DNA of 64,000 nt from Pseudarthrobacter siccitolerans (lineage in GTDB: Bacteria > Actinomycetota > Actinomycetes > Actinomycetales > Micrococcaceae). This document shows, in pieces, positions 28,153 to 39,404 of this stretch; the stretch's first letter is position 1, and the number at the start of each line of letters is the position of its first letter. The stretch lies in the NCBI RefSeq assembly GCF_030823375.1, contig NZ_JAUSXB010000001.1:2170001-2234000 (forward strand), given 5' to 3'. Position numbers and translations under genes: made by a program. The notes below the pieces were generated by a model, which had not been told where the DNA came from, did no database searches, and was given only the letters and a program-made list of their open reading frames with translations.

Positions 28153-28261
28153 CGTTTTGACCCAGGCCTATTGCCTTGCTTCCACCGTCCTTTCGAACCG
28201 GTACGCTGGTGCTGGTTGCCGCATGGAGGCTCTGGCGGTGCAGGTTGAAACGGGGAGTCCT

Positions 28262-31030
28262 ATGGCACGTCCGCTCATCGCGACGAAGCTGTTCGTCCCG
28301 AAGGTGCGATTCCAGGTTGTGACCCGCGCACGGCTTCTGGAGCGCCTTCGCCGAGGAGCCGACGCGCGGCTGACCCTGGTGTCTGCCCCGGCCGGATTCG
28401 GCAAAACCACCCTCCTGGCCCAGTGGTTGGGCACCGGGCCGGACGACAGGGCGCACGAACGGCCGGACGAACGGCGGGTCGCCTGGGTCTCGCTGGACGC
28501 AACCGACAAGGAATCTTCCAGTTTCTGGACCTACGTGGTGTCGGCGCTGCAAGGAGCAGTGCCAGGCGTCGGATCATCAGCCCTGGAGCTCCTCGCTTCC
28601 CCCGCTGCGCCGGTCGAGGGCGCGCTCACCACTCTGGTCAACGACCTGGCCGCGGCCCCGAGCGAGGTGTGGCTGGTTCTCGACGATTACCACCTCGTGG
28701 ACAACCCGGAAGTTGGCAAAGGGCTGGCCTTCCTGCTGGAGCACCTTCCGCCCAACATCCACGTGATCATCAGTACCCGGGCAGACCCGGGGCTCCCGCT
28801 GTCGCGCTGGCGGGCGCGGGGCGAGCTAGTGGAAGTGCGGGCAGCGGAACTCCGTTTTACGTCCCAGGAGGCAGCCGCCTACTTCAACGAGGCAGCCGGG
28901 CTGGGTCTTTCCGAGGCGGACGTAGCGGCCTTGGAGCAGCGCACGGAGGGGTGGGTTGCCGCCCTGCAGCTGGCAGCACTCTCCCTTCAGGGGCGCGCGG
29001 ATATTGCCGGTTTCGTTGCCGGGTTCGCCGGGAACGACCGGTACATCGTGGACTACCTGGTCGAGGAGGTACTTGAGTATCAATCCCAGGAGGTCCGGAA
29101 CTTCCTGCTGAACACGTCGGTTTTGGACCGCCTCAGCGGGCCCCTCTGCGACGCGGTAACGGGCGGCGGGGACGGGAGCGGGATGCTCACCGCCCTTGAG
29201 CGAGCCAACCTTTTTCTCGTTCCGTTGGACGACCGGCGGGAGTGGTTCCGCTACCACCACCTTTTCGCCGACGTCCTGCGGGCGCGCCTGCTCAGCCAGC
29301 AGCCCGGGCTTGTGCCACTGCTGCATGAGCGCGCCAGCCTCTGGTACGAACACAATGCCTTGACGGATGAAGCAGTCAGTCACGCGCTGGCGGGCCAGGA
29401 CTTCGGCCGTGCCGCCCACCTGATGGAACTGGCGGTCCCCATGATCCGGCGCGAGCGGCAGGAGAGCCTGCTGTTCGGCTGGCTCAAGGCACTGCCAGAC
29501 GACGTGGTCAGGCGCAGCCCCGTTCTCAGCGTCTTTTACGGGTTTATGCTGATGGCCACCGGTGACCTCCAGGATGTGGAGGCCCGGTTCGAGGACGCCG
29601 AACGTGCGCTGGCCGAGGTGCCGCCCGGCCAGCCTCTGCCCTGGGCCGACACCGAGGAGCTGCGCGCGCTCCCCGCCACCATCGCCGTCTACCGCGCTTC
29701 GCTGGCCCAGGCACGAGGTGATGTGGCCGGGACGGCGGAGCATGCCCGGCGGGCTCTTGACCTGGCCGGTCCCAACGATCATCTTTCGCGCGGTGCAGCC
29801 GCCGGGTTCCTGGGCCTCGCCGCCTGGGTGGGAGGGGACGTGGAGTCCGCGCTCGAGACTTTCACGCAGGCTGTGGAAAGCCTGCATGCGTCCGGCAACC
29901 TCGTCGATGCCCTGAGCAGCACCGTGATCCTGGCTGACATGTGGCTCGCCGCGGGCCGTCCCGGCCAGGCGCGGCGTCTCTACCTGGATGGGCTGCGGCT
30001 GGCCGAGTCGCTGGGGGACCGCGTGGCCCGGGCAACGGCGGAACTGCATGTAGGGCTCAGCGAAATTGAGTGTGAAGCCGGGGATCCCGCCGGCGCGGAA
30101 GGACGCCTCCGGGAAGCAGCCGTGTTCTTTGACCGGTCCCCCATGACAGAGAGCCGGTACCGGTGGTTTGTCGCCAGGGCACTGACTGCCTGGGCCGGCG
30201 GAAGTCCGGACGACGCCGTCGGCCTCCTTGGCCAGGCGGAGCAGCTCTACCGGCGGGGGTTCTTTCCGGAGGTACGCCCCATCGCTGCCATGCAGGCCAG
30301 GATCCGGATCGCCCAGGGCGAACTCGCTGAGGCCGGCGACTGGGCGAGGGCAAGGCGTTTGTCCGTCACCGACGACGCCAGTTACCTGCGCGAGTTTGAC
30401 CACCTGACGCTGGTGCGGCTTCTCATCGCGCAGTTTAGGGGACAGCCCGACGACGGCGGCGCCAGCGACGAGGCAGCCCGCCTTCTAGAGCGGCTGCTTG
30501 AGTCCGCTGCGGCAAACGGCCGGGCCGGAAGCATCGTGGAGATCCGCATGCTGCAGGCACTGCTCGAAGACGTGCACGGACACCGGGAGCGGGCCCGCGA
30601 CATGCTGGGCCGCGCCTTCACAGAGGTACCGGAACCCGGCGGCTATGCACGGCTCTTCCTCGCGGAAGGGGCGCCGATGCTGGGACTGCTGCGCGACGCC
30701 GTCGAGCACGGAACCGGCGGCGACCACCCCCACCGCCTTCTCAGCATGGTTCCGCCGGCAGATGCTGAAGCCCCTGACCAGGGCCACGAACCGCCCGGCC
30801 CGGACAGGCAGGCCTCGACGGGCGCGGTGTCAAACGCCGAAAAGCTGAGCGGGCGGGAACTGCAGGTACTCAGGCTCCTCGACAGCGAGCTGAGCGGGCC
30901 GGAGATTGCACGGGCACTGTTCATCTCGCACAACACCCTGCGGACCCACACCAAGCACATCTTCGCGAAGCTCGGCGTCAGCAACCGGCAGGGCGCGGTC
31001 CGGCGGGCAAGCGAACGGCGCCTGATGTAA
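28262..31030 (+). CDS. MalT-like LuxR-family ATP-dependent activator
   Basis: 922 aa from ATG 28262 (GGGAG five bases before). Layout: N-terminal KLFVPKVRF...RLLERL, Walker A SAPAGFGKTTLL, Walker B VWLVLDDYHLV, STRADPGLPLSRWRARGEL sensor region, winged-helix RYHHLFADVLRARL, a long TPR-like helical region (about 350-830), and a C-terminal LuxR HTH (LSGRELQVLRLLDSELSGPEIARALFISHNTLRTHTKHIFAKLGVSNR). This is the STAND/MalT architecture in which inducer plus ATP drives oligomerisation on DNA. The inducer is unknown. Repeated GGTGA boxes in the gap to the next gene suggest that gene as target. Confidence 0.92.
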   Translation: MARPLIATKLFVPKVRFQVVTRARLLERLRRGADARLTLVSAPAGFGKTTLLAQWLGTGPDDRAHERPDERRVAWVSLDATDKESSSFWTYVVSALQGAVPGVGSSALELLASPAAPVEGALTTLVNDLAAAPSEVWLVLDDYHLVDNPEVGKGLAFLLEHLPPNIHVIISTRADPGLPLSRWRARGELVEVRAAELRFTSQEAAAYFNEAAGLGLSEADVAALEQRTEGWVAALQLAALSLQGRADIAGFVAGFAGNDRYIVDYLVEEVLEYQSQEVRNFLLNTSVLDRLSGPLCDAVTGGGDGSGMLTALERANLFLVPLDDRREWFRYHHLFADVLRARLLSQQPGLVPLLHERASLWYEHNALTDEAVSHALAGQDFGRAAHLMELAVPMIRRERQESLLFGWLKALPDDVVRRSPVLSVFYGFMLMATGDLQDVEARFEDAERALAEVPPGQPLPWADTEELRALPATIAVYRASLAQARGDVAGTAEHARRALDLAGPNDHLSRGAAAGFLGLAAWVGGDVESALETFTQAVESLHASGNLVDALSSTVILADMWLAAGRPGQARRLYLDGLRLAESLGDRVARATAELHVGLSEIECEAGDPAGAEGRLREAAVFFDRSPMTESRYRWFVARALTAWAGGSPDDAVGLLGQAEQLYRRGFFPEVRPIAAMQARIRIAQGELAEAGDWARARRLSVTDDASYLREFDHLTLVRLLIAQFRGQPDDGGASDEAARLLERLLESAAANGRAGSIVEIRMLQALLEDVHGHRERARDMLGRAFTEVPEPGGYARLFLAEGAPMLGLLRDAVEHGTGGDHPHRLLSMVPPADAEAPDQGHEPPGPDRQASTGAVSNAEKLSGRELQVLRLLDSELSGPEIARALFISHNTLRTHTKHIFAKLGVSNRQGAVRRASERRLM

Positions 31031-34322: not shown

Positions 34323-35435
34323 ATGGTCTCTCCCCCCGAAATCCGTCGTGCCGTTGTCATCGAAGACGACCCGGACATCCGCGGGCTGCTGGTCCGGGTC
34401 CTGGTCAAGCAAGGCTTCGACGTAACGGAGGCCGGAGCCGGCCTGCCCGGGGTTGAGGAGGTCCGCCGCTGCCAGCCTGATTTGGTCACGCTGGACCTGA
34501 ACCTGCCGGACGTTGACGGCCTCGAAGTCTGCAAGCTGCTCCGCGAATTCTCGGACGCCTTCATCGTGATGCTCACCGCGCGCGCCGATGAACTGGACAA
34601 GCTGACCGGCCTGGACAACGGGGCGGACGAGTACCTCAGCAAGCCGTTCAGCCCCCGCGAGCTGCAATCGCGGATCAATGCCCTCTTCCGCCGCCGGCCC
34701 TCCGCTGCCGCGGATTCAGCAGCCCGAAGTGAGCTGGAACGCGCCACAGAAGTCCAGCAAAGCCTCCTCCCCAAGGAGGACATCCGTGTGGACGGCTACG
34801 ACGTCGCCGGCGTGTTCCGCCCCTCCCGCAGCGTGGGCGGGGACTTCTACGACTGGTACCAGTCACCGGACGGGCTCCACCTCACCTTCGCCGACGCCAT
34901 GGGCAAGGGCATGGGTGCGGCGCTCATCGCGGCCACGGTCCGCGCGGTGATGCGCTCCATGGGGCACCGGCAGGACCTGGACGGCGCTTTCGCCTCCGCC
35001 AGCCAGTCGATCGCCGCAGACCTGGACTCCTCCAACTCCTTCGTCACGTTGTTCCACGCGCGTTTGGACGCAGCCTCCGGAACCGTCAACTATGTCGACG
35101 CCGGGCACGGACTTGCGCTGCACGTCCGCTCCGGCGGGGCTGCTCACCGGTTGCCCTCCGGCGGACCGCCGGTAGGCGCCTGGGCAGGCTCGCAGTGGCC
35201 GCAGTCCAACCTGGAACTCGCCCCGGGAGATTCCCTGGTGGTGGTCAGCGACGGCGTGCTGGACGTCTTCGACTCGGTGGAGGACTTCACCGAAGCCGTT
35301 CGAAGCGCCATCCAAAACCAGGATTCAGCGCACGCAGCCAGCGGCGCCATCCTGGCCCTCGCTCCTGCCGAGACAGCGGAGGACGACGTCACCGTGGTTG
35401 TGGTCCGCCGGCTGCCGGAGCAGGCAGCGGCGTGA
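34323..35435 (+). CDS. Response regulator with PP2C (RsbU/SpoIIE-type) phosphatase output
   Basis: 370 aa. Residues 8-130 form a receiver: acidic pair IEDD, phospho-acceptor Asp58 (VTLDLNLPDVDG), LTARADE and YLSKPFSPREL with the Lys. A short helical linker (SELERATEVQQSLLPKED) leads to a PP2C-type phosphatase (about 150-365): SRSVGGDFYDWY, FADAMGKGMGAALIAATVRAV, YVDAGHGLAL, LVVVSDGVLDVFD and AEDDVTVVVV, with the metal-binding Asp residues intact. Such proteins dephosphorylate STAS anti-sigma antagonists. The stop overlaps the next start by 4 bp (GTGA). The cognate STAS is three genes along; the kinase is probably the convergent GAF histidine kinase. Confidence 0.92.
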   Translation: MVSPPEIRRAVVIEDDPDIRGLLVRVLVKQGFDVTEAGAGLPGVEEVRRCQPDLVTLDLNLPDVDGLEVCKLLREFSDAFIVMLTARADELDKLTGLDNGADEYLSKPFSPRELQSRINALFRRRPSAAADSAARSELERATEVQQSLLPKEDIRVDGYDVAGVFRPSRSVGGDFYDWYQSPDGLHLTFADAMGKGMGAALIAATVRAVMRSMGHRQDLDGAFASASQSIAADLDSSNSFVTLFHARLDAASGTVNYVDAGHGLALHVRSGGAAHRLPSGGPPVGAWAGSQWPQSNLELAPGDSLVVVSDGVLDVFDSVEDFTEAVRSAIQNQDSAHAASGAILALAPAETAEDDVTVVVVRRLPEQAAA

Positions 35436-37411
35436 CCCGCTTCTGGACCCGCCTGGTAGTGGTGCTGACCGTTGTCACCGGGCTCAACTACGTCGCCTGG
35501 CGCTGGGCCGCCTCGTTGAACTGGGACGCCTGGTGGATCGCGTTGCCGCTGGTGGTCGCCGAGACCTACAGCCTGATCGACGTGATGCTGTTCGGTATGA
35601 CTGTCTGGAGGCTGAAGATCCGCAAGGGCGCCCCGCCGCCACCCCACGATGCCACCGTAGACGTCTTCATCACCACGTACAACGAAGACCTGGACATGGT
35701 GATGACCACGGCACTCGCTGCCCAGAAGATCCGGCATCCCCACAGCACCTGGATCCTGGACGACGGCGCCCGGGCCGAACTCAAGGCCCTCGCGGAACAG
35801 CACGGCCTGGGCTACGTCACCCGCAGCGAGGACTGGACCTCCAACCTCCCCCGGCACGCCAAAGCCGGCAACCTGAACAACGCCCTGATGCAGACCCAGG
35901 GCGAGTTCCTCCTGATCCTGGACGCGGACCAGATCCCCGAGCCGGACATCCTCGAAAAGACCCTCGGCTACTTCAACAACCGCCGCGTCGCGCTGGTGCA
36001 GACCCCGCAGTACTTCAGCAACGTTCCGGTGAGCGATCCGCTCGGCAGCCAGGCACCCCTCTTCTACGGCCCCATCCAGCAGGGCAAGGACGGCTGGAAT
36101 GCCGCCTTCTTCTGCGGCTCCAACGCCATCCTGCGCCGCGAGGCCCTGATGCAGCTGGGCCTGGTGGGCTACGTCAAGGAGACCGAGAAGAGCATCCGGC
36201 GCGCGCTGGCAGCTTCACGCTCGGCCATCAGGCAAGCCCGGCGGTCCGCGGACCGGGAGGCTCCACTCGTCGCCCAGGTGCTCGACGAGGTGGAGGCAGC
36301 CACCCGGGAAGCCCAGCAGGACCTCGAAGCAGGCGGAGCGCTGAGCGAGATCACGTACCGGGTGCGCCGCCGCGTGGATACTGCCGTACAGACCCTGGTG
36401 ATGGCCGACGTCGAAGCCCTCCAGGCCGACCTCGAAGAGATCGCCGCCATGGAACTGGCCCATGTGGGCGAGTCCGGTGTTCCCGTAGTGGCGGACGATG
36501 CCGTCCAGCGCATGTCCGCCCGCGACTGGTCGCCGCTGGGCGCCCTGGAATCGGTGCAGGCCGTCCTGGACGCGCTGTCCGTGGAACGCAACGACGAAGC
36601 CCAGCCGGTCATGCCGCTGGCCACCATCTCCGTCACGGAGGACATGGCCACCGCGATGCGCATGCATGCCATGGGCTGGGAGAGCGTCTACCACCACGAG
36701 ATCCTGGCCTATGGCCTCGCGCCCGAGGACATCGCCACCATGCTCACGCAGCGCCTGCGCTGGGCCCAGGGCACCATCCAGGTGCTGCTGCGTGAGAACC
36801 CGCTGGTCCAGAAGGGCCTCAAGCTTGGCCAGCGCCTCATGTACTTCGCCACCATGTGGACCTACCTCAGCGGCTACGCGGCAGTTATCTACTTCGCCGC
36901 CCCCATCATCTACCTGCTGCTGGGCATCCTTCCGGTGACGAGCCTGAGCTGGGACTTCTTCATCCGGTTCATCCCGTTTATGGTGGTCAACCAGCTGCTG
37001 TTCGCCGTTGCCGGCCGGGGCATCCCCACCTGGCGCGGCCAGCAGTACAGCCTGGCCCTGTTCCCCACCTGGATCAAGGCGTGTTCGACGGCGGCCCGCA
37101 ACGTCTGGTTCGGCCGTCCCCTCGGCTTTGCCGTCACGCCTAAGGCCCGCCAGAGCGGCGGACCCAGCTGGAGCCTGATCCAGCCACAGATCGTGGTGTC
37201 GGTGCTGCTGGCGGTGGCCGCCGTCGTCGGAATTATCCGCCTGGCCACCGGCTTTGCCGAACCGCTCGGCACCCTGGTGAACGTCGCCTGGGTCATCTTC
37301 GACCTGGTGGTCATGAGCATTTTGGTGCGCGCAGTGCTTTACAAGGGTTACGAACCGGCAGCGGATCCCGTTGTCCCGGGGAACACAGAGAGGAATCCAG
37401 ATGGAGTTTAG
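35432..37411 (+). CDS. Membrane GT2 polysaccharide synthase with ~150-aa helical insertion
   Basis: 659 aa from GTG 35432. Two N-terminal spans are followed by a BcsA-like GT2 domain: VDVFITTYNED (80s), WILDDG (Asp110/111), LILDADQIP (164/166), FFCGSNAILRR (227-235), SVTEDMATAMRMHAMGW (TED about 402-404) and QRLRWAQG (440-446), so catalysis looks intact. Four or more C-terminal spans follow. Between NAILRR and TED, where relatives run on in a few dozen residues, about 150 extra residues (243-396) are inserted, Ala/Glu/Arg-rich and helical. A PilZ domain is not evident. It probably polymerises and exports a beta-glycan across the membrane; the sugar is unknown. Its overlap with a partner-switch set suggests control by those proteins. 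Confidence 0.9.
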   Translation: MTRFWTRLVVVLTVVTGLNYVAWRWAASLNWDAWWIALPLVVAETYSLIDVMLFGMTVWRLKIRKGAPPPPHDATVDVFITTYNEDLDMVMTTALAAQKIRHPHSTWILDDGARAELKALAEQHGLGYVTRSEDWTSNLPRHAKAGNLNNALMQTQGEFLLILDADQIPEPDILEKTLGYFNNRRVALVQTPQYFSNVPVSDPLGSQAPLFYGPIQQGKDGWNAAFFCGSNAILRREALMQLGLVGYVKETEKSIRRALAASRSAIRQARRSADREAPLVAQVLDEVEAATREAQQDLEAGGALSEITYRVRRRVDTAVQTLVMADVEALQADLEEIAAMELAHVGESGVPVVADDAVQRMSARDWSPLGALESVQAVLDALSVERNDEAQPVMPLATISVTEDMATAMRMHAMGWESVYHHEILAYGLAPEDIATMLTQRLRWAQGTIQVLLRENPLVQKGLKLGQRLMYFATMWTYLSGYAAVIYFAAPIIYLLLGILPVTSLSWDFFIRFIPFMVVNQLLFAVAGRGIPTWRGQQYSLALFPTWIKACSTAARNVWFGRPLGFAVTPKARQSGGPSWSLIQPQIVVSVLLAVAAVVGIIRLATGFAEPLGTLVNVAWVIFDLVVMSILVRAVLYKGYEPAADPVVPGNTERNPDGV

Positions 37412-37727
37412 CTATGAGGTCAAGGACTCGTATGCGGAGGTCAAGGCGGACGGGCGGCTGAACATGGTCTCCGCGCCCAAACTGCGGGAGTTTGTCACCG
37501 ATGTGATCGCCGGCGGATCCAACCGGATCGTGGTGAACCTGGAAAACACGGCGTTTATGGACTCCTCCGGCCTGGGTGCGCTGATCGGCTGCCTCAAGGC
37601 GGCCCGGCAGGCGGGCGGGGACCTCCGGATCGCGGCCGTGCAACCGCAGGTGAAGATGGTCCTGCAGCTCACCAGCATGGACAAGGTCCTGACGGCGTAC
37701 GGTACTGCCGAAGAGGCTCGGCAATGA
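37401..37727 (+). CDS. STAS-domain anti-sigma-factor-antagonist-like protein
   Basis: 108 aa from ATG 37401 after AGAGAGGA, overlapping the synthase end by 11 bp. STAS fold: YAEVKADGRLNMVSAPKLREFV, NRIVVNLENTAFMDSSGLGALIGCLKAAR with the DSSG phospho-Ser site, and GGDLRIAAVQPQVKMVLQLTSMDKVLTAY. In known systems the Ser is phosphorylated by an RsbW-type kinase and dephosphorylated by a PP2C enzyme; both partners are encoded here. The target may be the synthase rather than a sigma factor, since none is nearby. Confidence 0.93.
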   Translation: MEFSYEVKDSYAEVKADGRLNMVSAPKLREFVTDVIAGGSNRIVVNLENTAFMDSSGLGALIGCLKAARQAGGDLRIAAVQPQVKMVLQLTSMDKVLTAYGTAEEARQ

Positions 37728-38146
37728 CTGAGGTCCTGGCGTCACGCAGCTTCCGGGGGCTGGCGGCAGAGGATGCCATCGAGTCGGTGCACAACGACCT
37801 CGACAGCCTGTGGCGCGACGTCCCCTTTGTGCAGGACATGGACCAGATGACGTTTACGACGGCGGTCATCGAGTCGGCGTCGAACATCGTCCAGCATGCG
37901 GAGCCGGCCGGGCAGAATGCGGTGGAGCTCGGCGTGGACATCACCGTCCAGCCCACGCTGCTCCAGGCCCGGGTCAGCGCCTACAACGCCAAGCCGCCGT
38001 TCGGGCTGATGGAGCCGGCAACACCCGGCGAGGACGCCGAGTCCGGCCGGGGCCTGGCGCTGATCCAGGCCCTCGTCACCACCGTCACGTTCGAGCGGCA
38101 GGACGGCACCAACACGTGGGTCCTGTCCCGGACGTCGCAGCGCTAG
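37724..38146 (+). CDS. RsbW-like HATPase (anti-sigma-type kinase), divergent G1 box
   Basis: 140 aa, overlapping the STAS stop by 4 bp (ATGA). GHKL fold with N box TTAVIESASNIVQHA and a C-terminal SGRGLALIQALVTTVTFE corresponding to the G2 region. Where RsbW proteins have an aspartate-glycine G1 motif (VxDxGxG), this one has RVSAYNAKPPFG, lacking the Asp, so ATP binding or kinase activity may be weak or lost. It should pair with the STAS protein. It is the last gene of the operon; it converges on the histidine kinase 20 bp away. Confidence 0.85.
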   Translation: MTEVLASRSFRGLAAEDAIESVHNDLDSLWRDVPFVQDMDQMTFTTAVIESASNIVQHAEPAGQNAVELGVDITVQPTLLQARVSAYNAKPPFGLMEPATPGEDAESGRGLALIQALVTTVTFERQDGTNTWVLSRTSQR

Positions 38147-38165
38147 ACCCGTCTGAGGATCAGGG

Positions 38166-39404
38166 CTAGTCCAGGAATACCACCGACACCGTAGTCCCGC
38201 CGCCCGGGGTATCGCCGATGAAGAGCTCGCCGCCGTGCGCCTGGGCGATCCGGCGGCAGGTTGCCAGGCCCAGCCCTGTCCCCGGACCATCGCCGGGGCG
38301 GTTCAGCCGCATCAGGGGTTCCACGGCCTTCCTGCGCTCTGATGGCAGGATGCCCCTGCCGTTATCGGCCACGTGGATCGTAACCCCGCGGGAGCACCGG
38401 GTGGCCGTTACTGTCACCTTGGGCTCCCGCTTCCGGTCCCGGTAATTCAGGGAGTTCGCGAGCAGGTTCTGCACCAGCGTGCGCAGCTGGGCCCGGTCGG
38501 CGTACAGCTCCGCGTCCTCGCACAGGATTCCGCTGCTCAGCCCGAGGTCCAGTCCAAGGTCCCGGGCCGCCTCTGCCGTGACACCCAGCAGGGAAACACG
38601 CTCACGGTTCAGCTGCCCGTCCGCCCGGGAATAGTCCAGCACGTCCTCCAAAGCGCTCAACATGCGCTGCCCGCCGCTGCCGATATGTTCCAGGTACTCC
38701 TTGGCCGGGTGGTTAGGGGGAATCCCGGGATCGTCTTCGGCCAACTCCACGTAACCAAGGATGGTAGTGAGGGGAGCGCGAAGGTCGTGGCTGACCCGGC
38801 CGGCAAACTCGGACAGCATCGCGTTGCTGCGCTGGAGTTCCGCCAGGGCGTCGTTGAGCTGCAGGGTGCGGTGCTGGAGCTCGAGAAGCTCCACCACCTG
38901 GTGCGCCAGCACCTCCACCAGCTCGATCTGTCCGCGCGTGGGAAGTTCGGCGGTATCGGAGAACACGCACAGTGAGCCCAGCACCAGGCCGCTGGAAGTC
39001 CTGAGCGGCACCGAGGCATAGAAGCGGACCTGTGCGATTTCCCCCGTCACAAACGGGTTGGCAGCAAAGCGCGGGTCCTGGGAGGCATCCCGCACCACGG
39101 TTGTCCCGGGGCTGAGGAACACGCTCGCGCACATCGAGTCTTCCCGGGAACAGACGACCCGGTCGATGCCGGAGGCCGCAATCTGCAACTGCTGGTCCGC
39201 CGTGATGATGTTGACCACGCTGTAGGGCACCCCGCACAACGAGGCAGCCAGCCGCACCAGATTGTCCAGTGCGCCCCTTGCCCGGGCATCCCTTAGCGCA
39301 AGAGTTTCGCCGGCAGCAGGTATCAGCCCGTATTCCCGCAGCTCAAGCTCACGTGCGGCATCCTGATCGGTCAGCGTTTGCATAGCCGTCCCGTCCGTAT
39401 TCAT
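38166..39404 (-). CDS. GAF-domain sensor histidine kinase
   Basis: 412 aa from ATG 39404 (GGGGGACG upstream). No membrane segment. Residues about 30-190 are a GAF domain (ALDNLVRLAASLCGVPYSVVNII; MCASVFLSPGTTVVRDASQDPRF; ASVPLRTSSGLVLGSLCVFSD), then a coiled linker, HisKA (GRVSHDLRAPLTTILGYVEL, phospho-His), and HATPase with N box LVQNLLANSLNYR, G1 VADNGRGI and GTGLGLATC. A cytosolic sensor, perhaps of redox or ligand state. It converges tail-to-tail on the RR-PP2C/synthase operon and is the nearest candidate kinase for Asp58 of that regulator. Confidence 0.9.
   Translation of the reverse strand: MNTDGTAMQTLTDQDAARELELREYGLIPAAGETLALRDARARGALDNLVRLAASLCGVPYSVVNIITADQQLQIAASGIDRVVCSREDSMCASVFLSPGTTVVRDASQDPRFAANPFVTGEIAQVRFYASVPLRTSSGLVLGSLCVFSDTAELPTRGQIELVEVLAHQVVELLELQHRTLQLNDALAELQRSNAMLSEFAGRVSHDLRAPLTTILGYVELAEDDPGIPPNHPAKEYLEHIGSGGQRMLSALEDVLDYSRADGQLNRERVSLLGVTAEAARDLGLDLGLSSGILCEDAELYADRAQLRTLVQNLLANSLNYRDRKREPKVTVTATRCSRGVTIHVADNGRGILPSERRKAVEPLMRLNRPGDGPGTGLGLATCRRIAQAHGGELFIGDTPGGGTTVSVVFLD

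Follow-up and report, generated by a model that had tools for sequence, protein, structure and literature searches.

A gene set in the window (the 64,000-nucleotide stretch of Pseudarthrobacter siccitolerans DNA analyzed here) joins the phosphatase, STAS protein, and HATPase of a partner switch with a BcsA-like membrane polysaccharide synthase, and this set is a conserved actinobacterial cassette whose gene order is kept more than chance would allow. We tentatively propose, giving the idea somewhat less than an even chance, that the cassette works as an autonomous switch controlling how active its own synthase is; in this scheme, a signal would act through the PP2C phosphatase to yield free STAS protein, the free STAS would act on the GT2 synthase, and the HATPase would reverse the process. 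The parts of this explanation that are directly established are the genes, their conserved order, their co-occurrence, their domain content, and the predicted fold of the synthase.

The four genes occupy 34323-38146 (+), in the order receiver-PP2C, BcsA-like GT2, STAS with a DSSG motif, and RsbW-like HATPase (Table 1), and each overlaps its successor: PP2C and GT2 by 4 bp (GTGA; GT2 start GTG at 35432, PP2C end at 35435), GT2 and STAS by 11 bp (STAS ATG at 37401, GT2 stop at 37409-37411), and STAS and HATPase by 4 bp (ATGA; HATPase ATG at 37724, STAS stop at 37725-37727). Coordinates and Pfam domains agree with the earlier note on this DNA, which had described four overlapping genes in this order and a GAF kinase converging on them. 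A Pfam scan of all five proteins returned no matches to sigma, PilZ, or GGDEF domains, and searches of the window set for consensus promoters and terminators returned 1 and 2 sites, respectively, about the level of shuffled sequence.

Table 1. Positions in the window of the cassette genes, the synthase insertion, and the converging kinase gene
Feature	Position	Strand	Basis
Receiver-PP2C (SpoIIE-type) phosphatase, 370 aa	34323..35435	+	Pfam Response_reg 90 bits, SpoIIE 119 bits (cut-off 25)
BcsA-like GT2 membrane synthase, 659 aa	35432..37411	+	Pfam Cellulose_synt/GT2; without PilZ match
GT2 helical insertion, residues 246-396, FFCGS-to-TED interval	36167..36619	+	BcsA alignment gap and predicted helices
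Stand-alone STAS protein, 108 aa, DSSG	37401..37727	+	STAS 68 bits, STAS_2 47 bits; NCBIfam ant_ant_sig 85 bits (cut-off 53)
RsbW/SpoIIAB-like HATPase, 140 aa, Ala for G1-box Asp	37724..38146	+	HATPase_c_2 38 bits
GAF histidine kinase, convergent with the cassette	38166..39404	-	Pfam GAF, HisKA, HATPase_c

A genome scan with an alignment of 13 synthases yielded 544 relatives, the best 80 of which (22 genera plus MAGs) form a set weighted towards close relatives. The order GT2, STAS, HATPase is kept in 76 of these best 80 loci, from 20 genera, and a PP2C gene accompanies it in 72 of the 76, ahead of it in 55 and either behind or within it in 17. A STAS gene lies behind the GT2 gene in 77 of the 80 loci and directly so in 75, because PP2C sits between the two in L200 and L230; the GT2 and STAS frames are no more than 30 bp apart in 72 of the 77 (taking STAS as 110 aa). 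The four exceptions to the order are L235 and L257, in which a nearby STAS-HATPase pair points the opposite way; L204, a short contig on which no such pair was seen; and L269, in which STAS lies behind GT2 and the HATPase frame is on the opposite strand. A second set, of 51 loci with the window excluded, has the order in 43; in the remainder, the genes are rearranged nearby (L067 and L068), the trio has a different genomic location (L079 and L080), no trio was seen (L090), or only a divergent STAS is found (L091 to L093). Both sets support what the earlier note proposed to test, conservation of the order receiver-PP2C/GT2/STAS/HATPase apart from sigma factors, with the position of the PP2C gene varying. 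An even draw of 246 genomes from the class holds the synthase in 12, the window's own genome included; 10 of the other 11 loci were fetched widely, and in every one of the 10, GT2 is followed by STAS and HATPase, the eleventh being on a 3.3-kb contig. The synthase occurs in 2 genomes (one of them the window's own) of a similar draw of 246 from the phylum, with the 4 to 6 best candidates scored per genome in both draws. Among 72,556 plasmid records, none covers 80% of the GT2, and 22 give partial matches of less than 60% identity. Two synthase copies look broken, L086 being in two frames and L090 missing the QxxRW stretch.

The synthase and the switch also occur together across genomes. Among 197 genomes of the window's family, GT2 (E value of 1e-60) is found in 36 and STAS (E value of 1e-8) in 40, with STAS present in all 36 GT2 genomes versus 4 of the 161 without GT2 (kinship uncorrected). 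Within the window's genus, the identical 8 of 12 genomes hold both, and in G585 and G599, the trio has moved away from GT2 yet is still in the genome.

The main genomic evidence against the synthase being the exclusive target comes from four genomes. Three of them, from one genus (G503, G571, and G602; L176 to L178), carry a PP2C-STAS-HATPase trio without a detected synthase of the cassette type; the trio adjoins a gene for a class I tRNA synthetase (as scanned in L178), no SigB/F-like sigma match was obtained in the three genomes, and the trio may serve another target or be a remnant. In the fourth, G590 (L179, 7486-9765), STAS and HATPase occur without GT2 or PP2C and adjoin an ECF-like sigma gene, next to which is a gene that, judging from its motif, we take to encode the anti-sigma factor. 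The G590 STAS and HATPase are 90 to 94% identical to those of the L074 cassette, so the synthase has probably been lost, and the same sigma type as in this two-gene ECF-like unit also occurs near the L074 cassette.

Three genomes of one genus (G532, G606, and G621; L091 to L093) contain a paralogous, diverged GT2 gene. Behind it come a gene for a STAS domain in which GASG replaces DSSG and a gene of the GH26 type, and neither PP2C nor HATPase is near. This arrangement (e.g., L091:7297-7725, minus strand) perhaps represents a single event, and the insertion of the L091 paralogue is shortened. In L090, GT2 is accompanied by GH26 with no STAS nearby, which counts against the proposed mechanism, though the GT2 concerned is the copy without the QxxRW stretch.

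In the genome of the window, sigma region 2 is matched at 8 places, none of them in the window region, and the one that is SigB/F-like is about 1.1 Mb away. Eight queries taken from these sigma loci were used to screen the surroundings of the cassettes (flanks of about 6 kb in the 80-locus set and up to about 10 kb in the 51-locus set, less at contig ends), and sigma-like genes, of mixed kinds, were near 3 of the best 80 of 544 and 9 of the 51 loci. The best query was the RpoD-like L106 for L050 and L086, the SigB/F-like L111 only for L244 (54 bits; a gene that is presumably FliA-like), and the ECF-like L107, L110, L112, or L113 for the rest, RpoD-like and ECF-like being our reading of the queries. 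With counts this low and mixed, the idea that the set as such serves sigma control was rejected. The earlier note had reported no sigma factor nearby and had named regular co-encoding of the set with a sigma factor or its anti-sigma partner as a finding that would speak against its proposal; the window set has none, and consistent linkage is not what the relatives show.

The synthase retains the GT2 core motifs (DDG, DAD, TED, and QRLRW), and its predicted model adds to the BcsA fold an insertion of helices close to the active site, the last predicted helix ending at residue 636 of 659. Sequence alignment with BcsA stops at residue 245 and restarts at 397; the helices predicted in and around this interval span residues 236-270, 278-299, 304-343, and 368-380, with low confidence at 341-365 and 387-397. 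The protein therefore resembles BcsA cellulose synthase in its GT2 core, membrane part, motifs, and fold but differs in having a helical insertion of about 150 residues and no C-terminal PilZ match, and its score against the NCBIfam CelA model (353 bits) is below the cut-off of 699. PilZ searches gave 0 matches in the synthase and in the genome, whereas 5 of 14 control genomes do match, and the genome has 4 GGDEF matches. Binding of c-di-GMP without PilZ is described for Sinorhizobium meliloti BgsA (PMC10374906), and c-di-GMP may still have a role in the cassette, in contrast to the c-di-GMP-free output that the earlier note suggested.

The neighbors of the synthase hint at its product. GH26 or GH26-OpgC genes are near the synthase in 27 of the best 80 of 544 loci, and in 18 of these 80, GH26 is fused to an OpgC-type acyltransferase (e.g., L079:5814-8360, minus strand); across the 197 family genomes, GH26 is found in 30 of 36 GT2 genomes versus 9 of 161 others (kinship uncorrected), and the single GH26 match in the window genome is far from the cassette. 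Such neighbors would fit a glycan product that is acylated and that the GH26 enzyme trims, and a search of the open-access literature found no print on such an OpgC/GH26 product. We take the polymer to be a mannan or a glucan with beta linkages. The activities of GH26 enzymes would suit mannan or mixed-linkage glucan as well as beta-1,4-glucan.

Residues expected of a phosphorylation switch are kept in the STAS protein and the PP2C. DSSG is present in 80 of 81 STAS frames; a SpoIIE domain occurs in all 69 PP2C proteins scanned, the window's included; and PP2C residues D174, D310, D354, and D355, which we take to be the metal-site aspartates, are invariant in 69 of 69 aligned. The family profile of the HATPase matches RsbW (6m36; E value of 4.4e-11) and an anti-sigma F factor in the PDB, and its predicted model has a mean pLDDT of 89, which together point to an RsbW/SpoIIAB-like fold. 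The G1 box of the window HATPase reads SAYNAKPP, with Ala in place of the Asp that binds adenine, a feature that the earlier note does not mention, and the full complement of N, G1, and G2 boxes of an RsbUVW-type GHKL kinase is lacking. At this position, 59 of 125 aligned HATPases have Asp, 45 have Ala, 19 have Glu, and 1 has Gln, with 1 unaligned, and five changes are placed on the synthase tree. The loss characterizes a clade of cassettes and not the whole family: 11 window-family loci (L077, L078, and L081 to L089) keep Asp, and the HATPase of L207 (Planctomonas) has Glu. The N and G2 boxes are kept, with E50, N54, G108, and G110 invariant in 65 aligned sequences. The altered nucleotide site of the window clade counts against the proposed mechanism; STAS phosphorylation presumably still occurs, since DSSG and the PP2C aspartates are kept despite the G1 loss. 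Asp at G1 is paired with a non-receiver PP2C in 28 of 30 cases and Ala or Glu with a receiver-PP2C in 31 of 38, a pairing that a single clade might largely account for. The cassette works like a partner switch but is without two features of the sigma-controlling family, a sigma gene and an intact G1 box.

Because a switch of the kind usually devoted to sigma factors is here wired to a cellulose-synthase-like enzyme, it probably acts on the enzyme itself. In the mechanism that we envisage, the signal would reach the PP2C from the GAF kinase through the receiver (or, in other lineages, through a GAF domain on the phosphatase), and the PP2C would strip the phosphate from the STAS serine. Free STAS would bind the cytosolic side of GT2, most likely at the helical insertion beside the active site, and turn polymer synthesis on, and the HATPase would rephosphorylate or hold STAS and turn synthesis off. 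We infer the direction of the signal, the contact between STAS and GT2, and the docking site. As judged from genome sequences, control of the synthase by STAS at the level of protein is the best reading of the 36/36 co-occurrence, the conserved order, the retention of the trio after relocation, the lack of a constant sigma factor, and the lack of PilZ. The suggestion in the earlier note that STAS may act directly on the synthase has fared unevenly: STAS does track the synthase through the family, but the synthase-free trios, the G590 pair beside an ECF-like sigma gene, the enrichment of SigB/F-like sigma factors in GT2 genomes (given below), and the altered kinase site weaken the case for direct action.

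The effector might instead be the HATPase, as an "anti-synthase" that holds GT2 off until unphosphorylated STAS removes it, which is the logic of RsbW with a synthase in place of the sigma factor. We regard this as possible though doubtful. Of the best 80 of 544 loci, 76 include the HATPase in the set; its N and G2 boxes have outlasted the G1 Asp, as expected if it were kept for binding, and its divergence follows that of GT2 as closely as that of STAS does (r of 0.91 and 0.91 over 125 loci), although shared species history alone can yield such correlations. STAS is favored over the HATPase as the effector because the paralogous synthase of L091 to L093 keeps an adjacent STAS gene without PP2C or HATPase and because SiaC and SypA likewise act downstream. 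Under ordinary sigma control, which we consider improbable, the HATPase would be the anti-sigma factor of a distant SigB/F-like sigma factor and the synthase merely cotranscribed. The genome has one such sigma gene with no listed HATPase_c_2 match near it, and the cassette STAS is the sole STAS_2 match in the genome. SigB/F-like sigma factors (E value of 1e-25) are also enriched in GT2 genomes, being found in 20 of 36 versus 35 of 161 others (kinship uncorrected; at most 11 candidates were scored per genome, and divergent sigma factors may escape); by the same token, 16 of the 36 give no match at this threshold and 35 genomes have the sigma factor without GT2, and sigma genes near cassettes are rare and mixed. 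STAS genes about 4 to 7 kb from SigB/F-like genes occur in L182 and L183 as separate copies in genomes that also hold the cassette, and the STAS tree places them next to cassette copies from their own genus, so that a sigma link of this lineage is possible there; the gene near the L244 cassette, with its SigB/F-like best match, points the same way.

Just as improbable, in our estimation, is a switch directed elsewhere, for instance at a modifying enzyme or at any of the four diguanylate cyclases, with the synthase belonging to the pathway so regulated. This would fit the four GGDEF matches, the four genomes with STAS-HATPase and no GT2, the GH26 and GH26-OpgC genes that travel with the set, and the reported precedents of HsbA-HsbD and SiaC-SiaD, but the constant neighbor is the synthase and not a cyclase (the locus neighbors having been screened without a GGDEF query). 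Flanking genes vary between lineages, which would be compatible with the mere neighborhood of a co-inherited block that has no functional link; the order kept in 76 loci of 20 genera (best 80 of 544), the co-occurrence in 36 of 36 genomes, and the retention of both parts after relocation make this very improbable.

To return to STAS as the effector, a bolder version, which we deem unlikely, would have direct docking of the switch protein on the helical insertion replace PilZ and c-di-GMP in a widespread class of actinobacterial synthases, with the window-clade HATPase, lacking the G1 acid, braking in a noncanonical or nucleotide-altered manner under the control of the histidine kinase and the receiver-phosphatase. 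Segment-wise co-divergence was tried as a means of locating the coupling site and was dropped, because an initial preference for the insertion did not stand out against controls: its partial correlations with STAS and HATPase are 0.40 and 0.44, those of residues 491-640 are 0.53 and 0.41, and those of the 150 most variable core columns are 0.65 and 0.66, such that controls of equal length or equal variability matched or beat it on most measures.

Among known systems, RsbU/RsbV/RsbW and SpoIIE/SpoIIAA/SpoIIAB share with the cassette a PP2C, a STAS protein with DSSG, and a GHKL HATPase; the cassette differs in having a synthase inside, no constant sigma factor, and, in the window's clade, no G1 Asp. 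The Pseudomonas HsbR/HsbA/HsbD system is likewise reported to be a partner switch, with ties to biofilm and to a diguanylate cyclase, but there is no synthase in the set. The Hsb system branches through FlgM/RpoS. In logic, the cassette appears closest to SypE/SypA and SiaABCD, although SiaC and SiaB belong to other protein families than its switch proteins. Like the cassette, Pseudomonas SiaABCD encodes phosphatase, kinase, and switch protein with an enzyme, and unphosphorylated SiaC is reported to bind the helical stalk of SiaD and directly activate it (PMC8457831). SiaD is a diguanylate cyclase; in the cassette, the enzyme target would be the synthase. In Vibrio fischeri, the serine-phosphorylated STAS protein SypA controls biofilm polysaccharide and is active when unphosphorylated, according to three reports (PMC8256260, PMC4517449, and PMC10120452); in the cassette, the tie seen is genomic linkage of STAS with the synthase gene. 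As these sources have it, SypE unites kinase and phosphatase in one protein within an 18-gene locus, whereas the cassette has separate proteins and a single synthase. Section 6 of a 2021 review gives the target of free SypA, HmpV, and RbaV as unknown (PMC8256260), as does a 2023 report for SypA (PMC10120452). The open-access titles and abstracts searched describe no partner switch with a synthase inside. Because the likely target here lies between the phosphatase and STAS genes, four proteins suffice to test the question of the STAS target; if the proposal is true, Gram-positive soil bacteria have a further means of turning a BcsA-type synthase on and off, one for which c-di-GMP is not obligatory.

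The input side of the cassette varies. Of 69 PP2C proteins (the window's included), 33 have a receiver and 29 to 30 have a GAF domain; a kinase of the window type (>300 bits) is near 13 of the best 80 of 544 loci, and a second kinase type, with PAS_4 in the one member scanned, is near 4 of the 80 and 10 of the 51 loci. With PP2C input domains and neighboring kinases varying in this way between loci, sensors are exchanged around a constant core. The GAF kinase of the window is the probable partner of its receiver-PP2C. Its GAF domain gave no match to the L224 PP2C, which itself is without a GAF match, and aligns with the GAF domain of the L259 PP2C at 30% identity over 127 columns (E value of 3e-11). 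A gene for a large LuxR/MalT-type regulator (TPR_MalT and GerE) lies upstream at 28157-31030, in the same orientation as the cassette.
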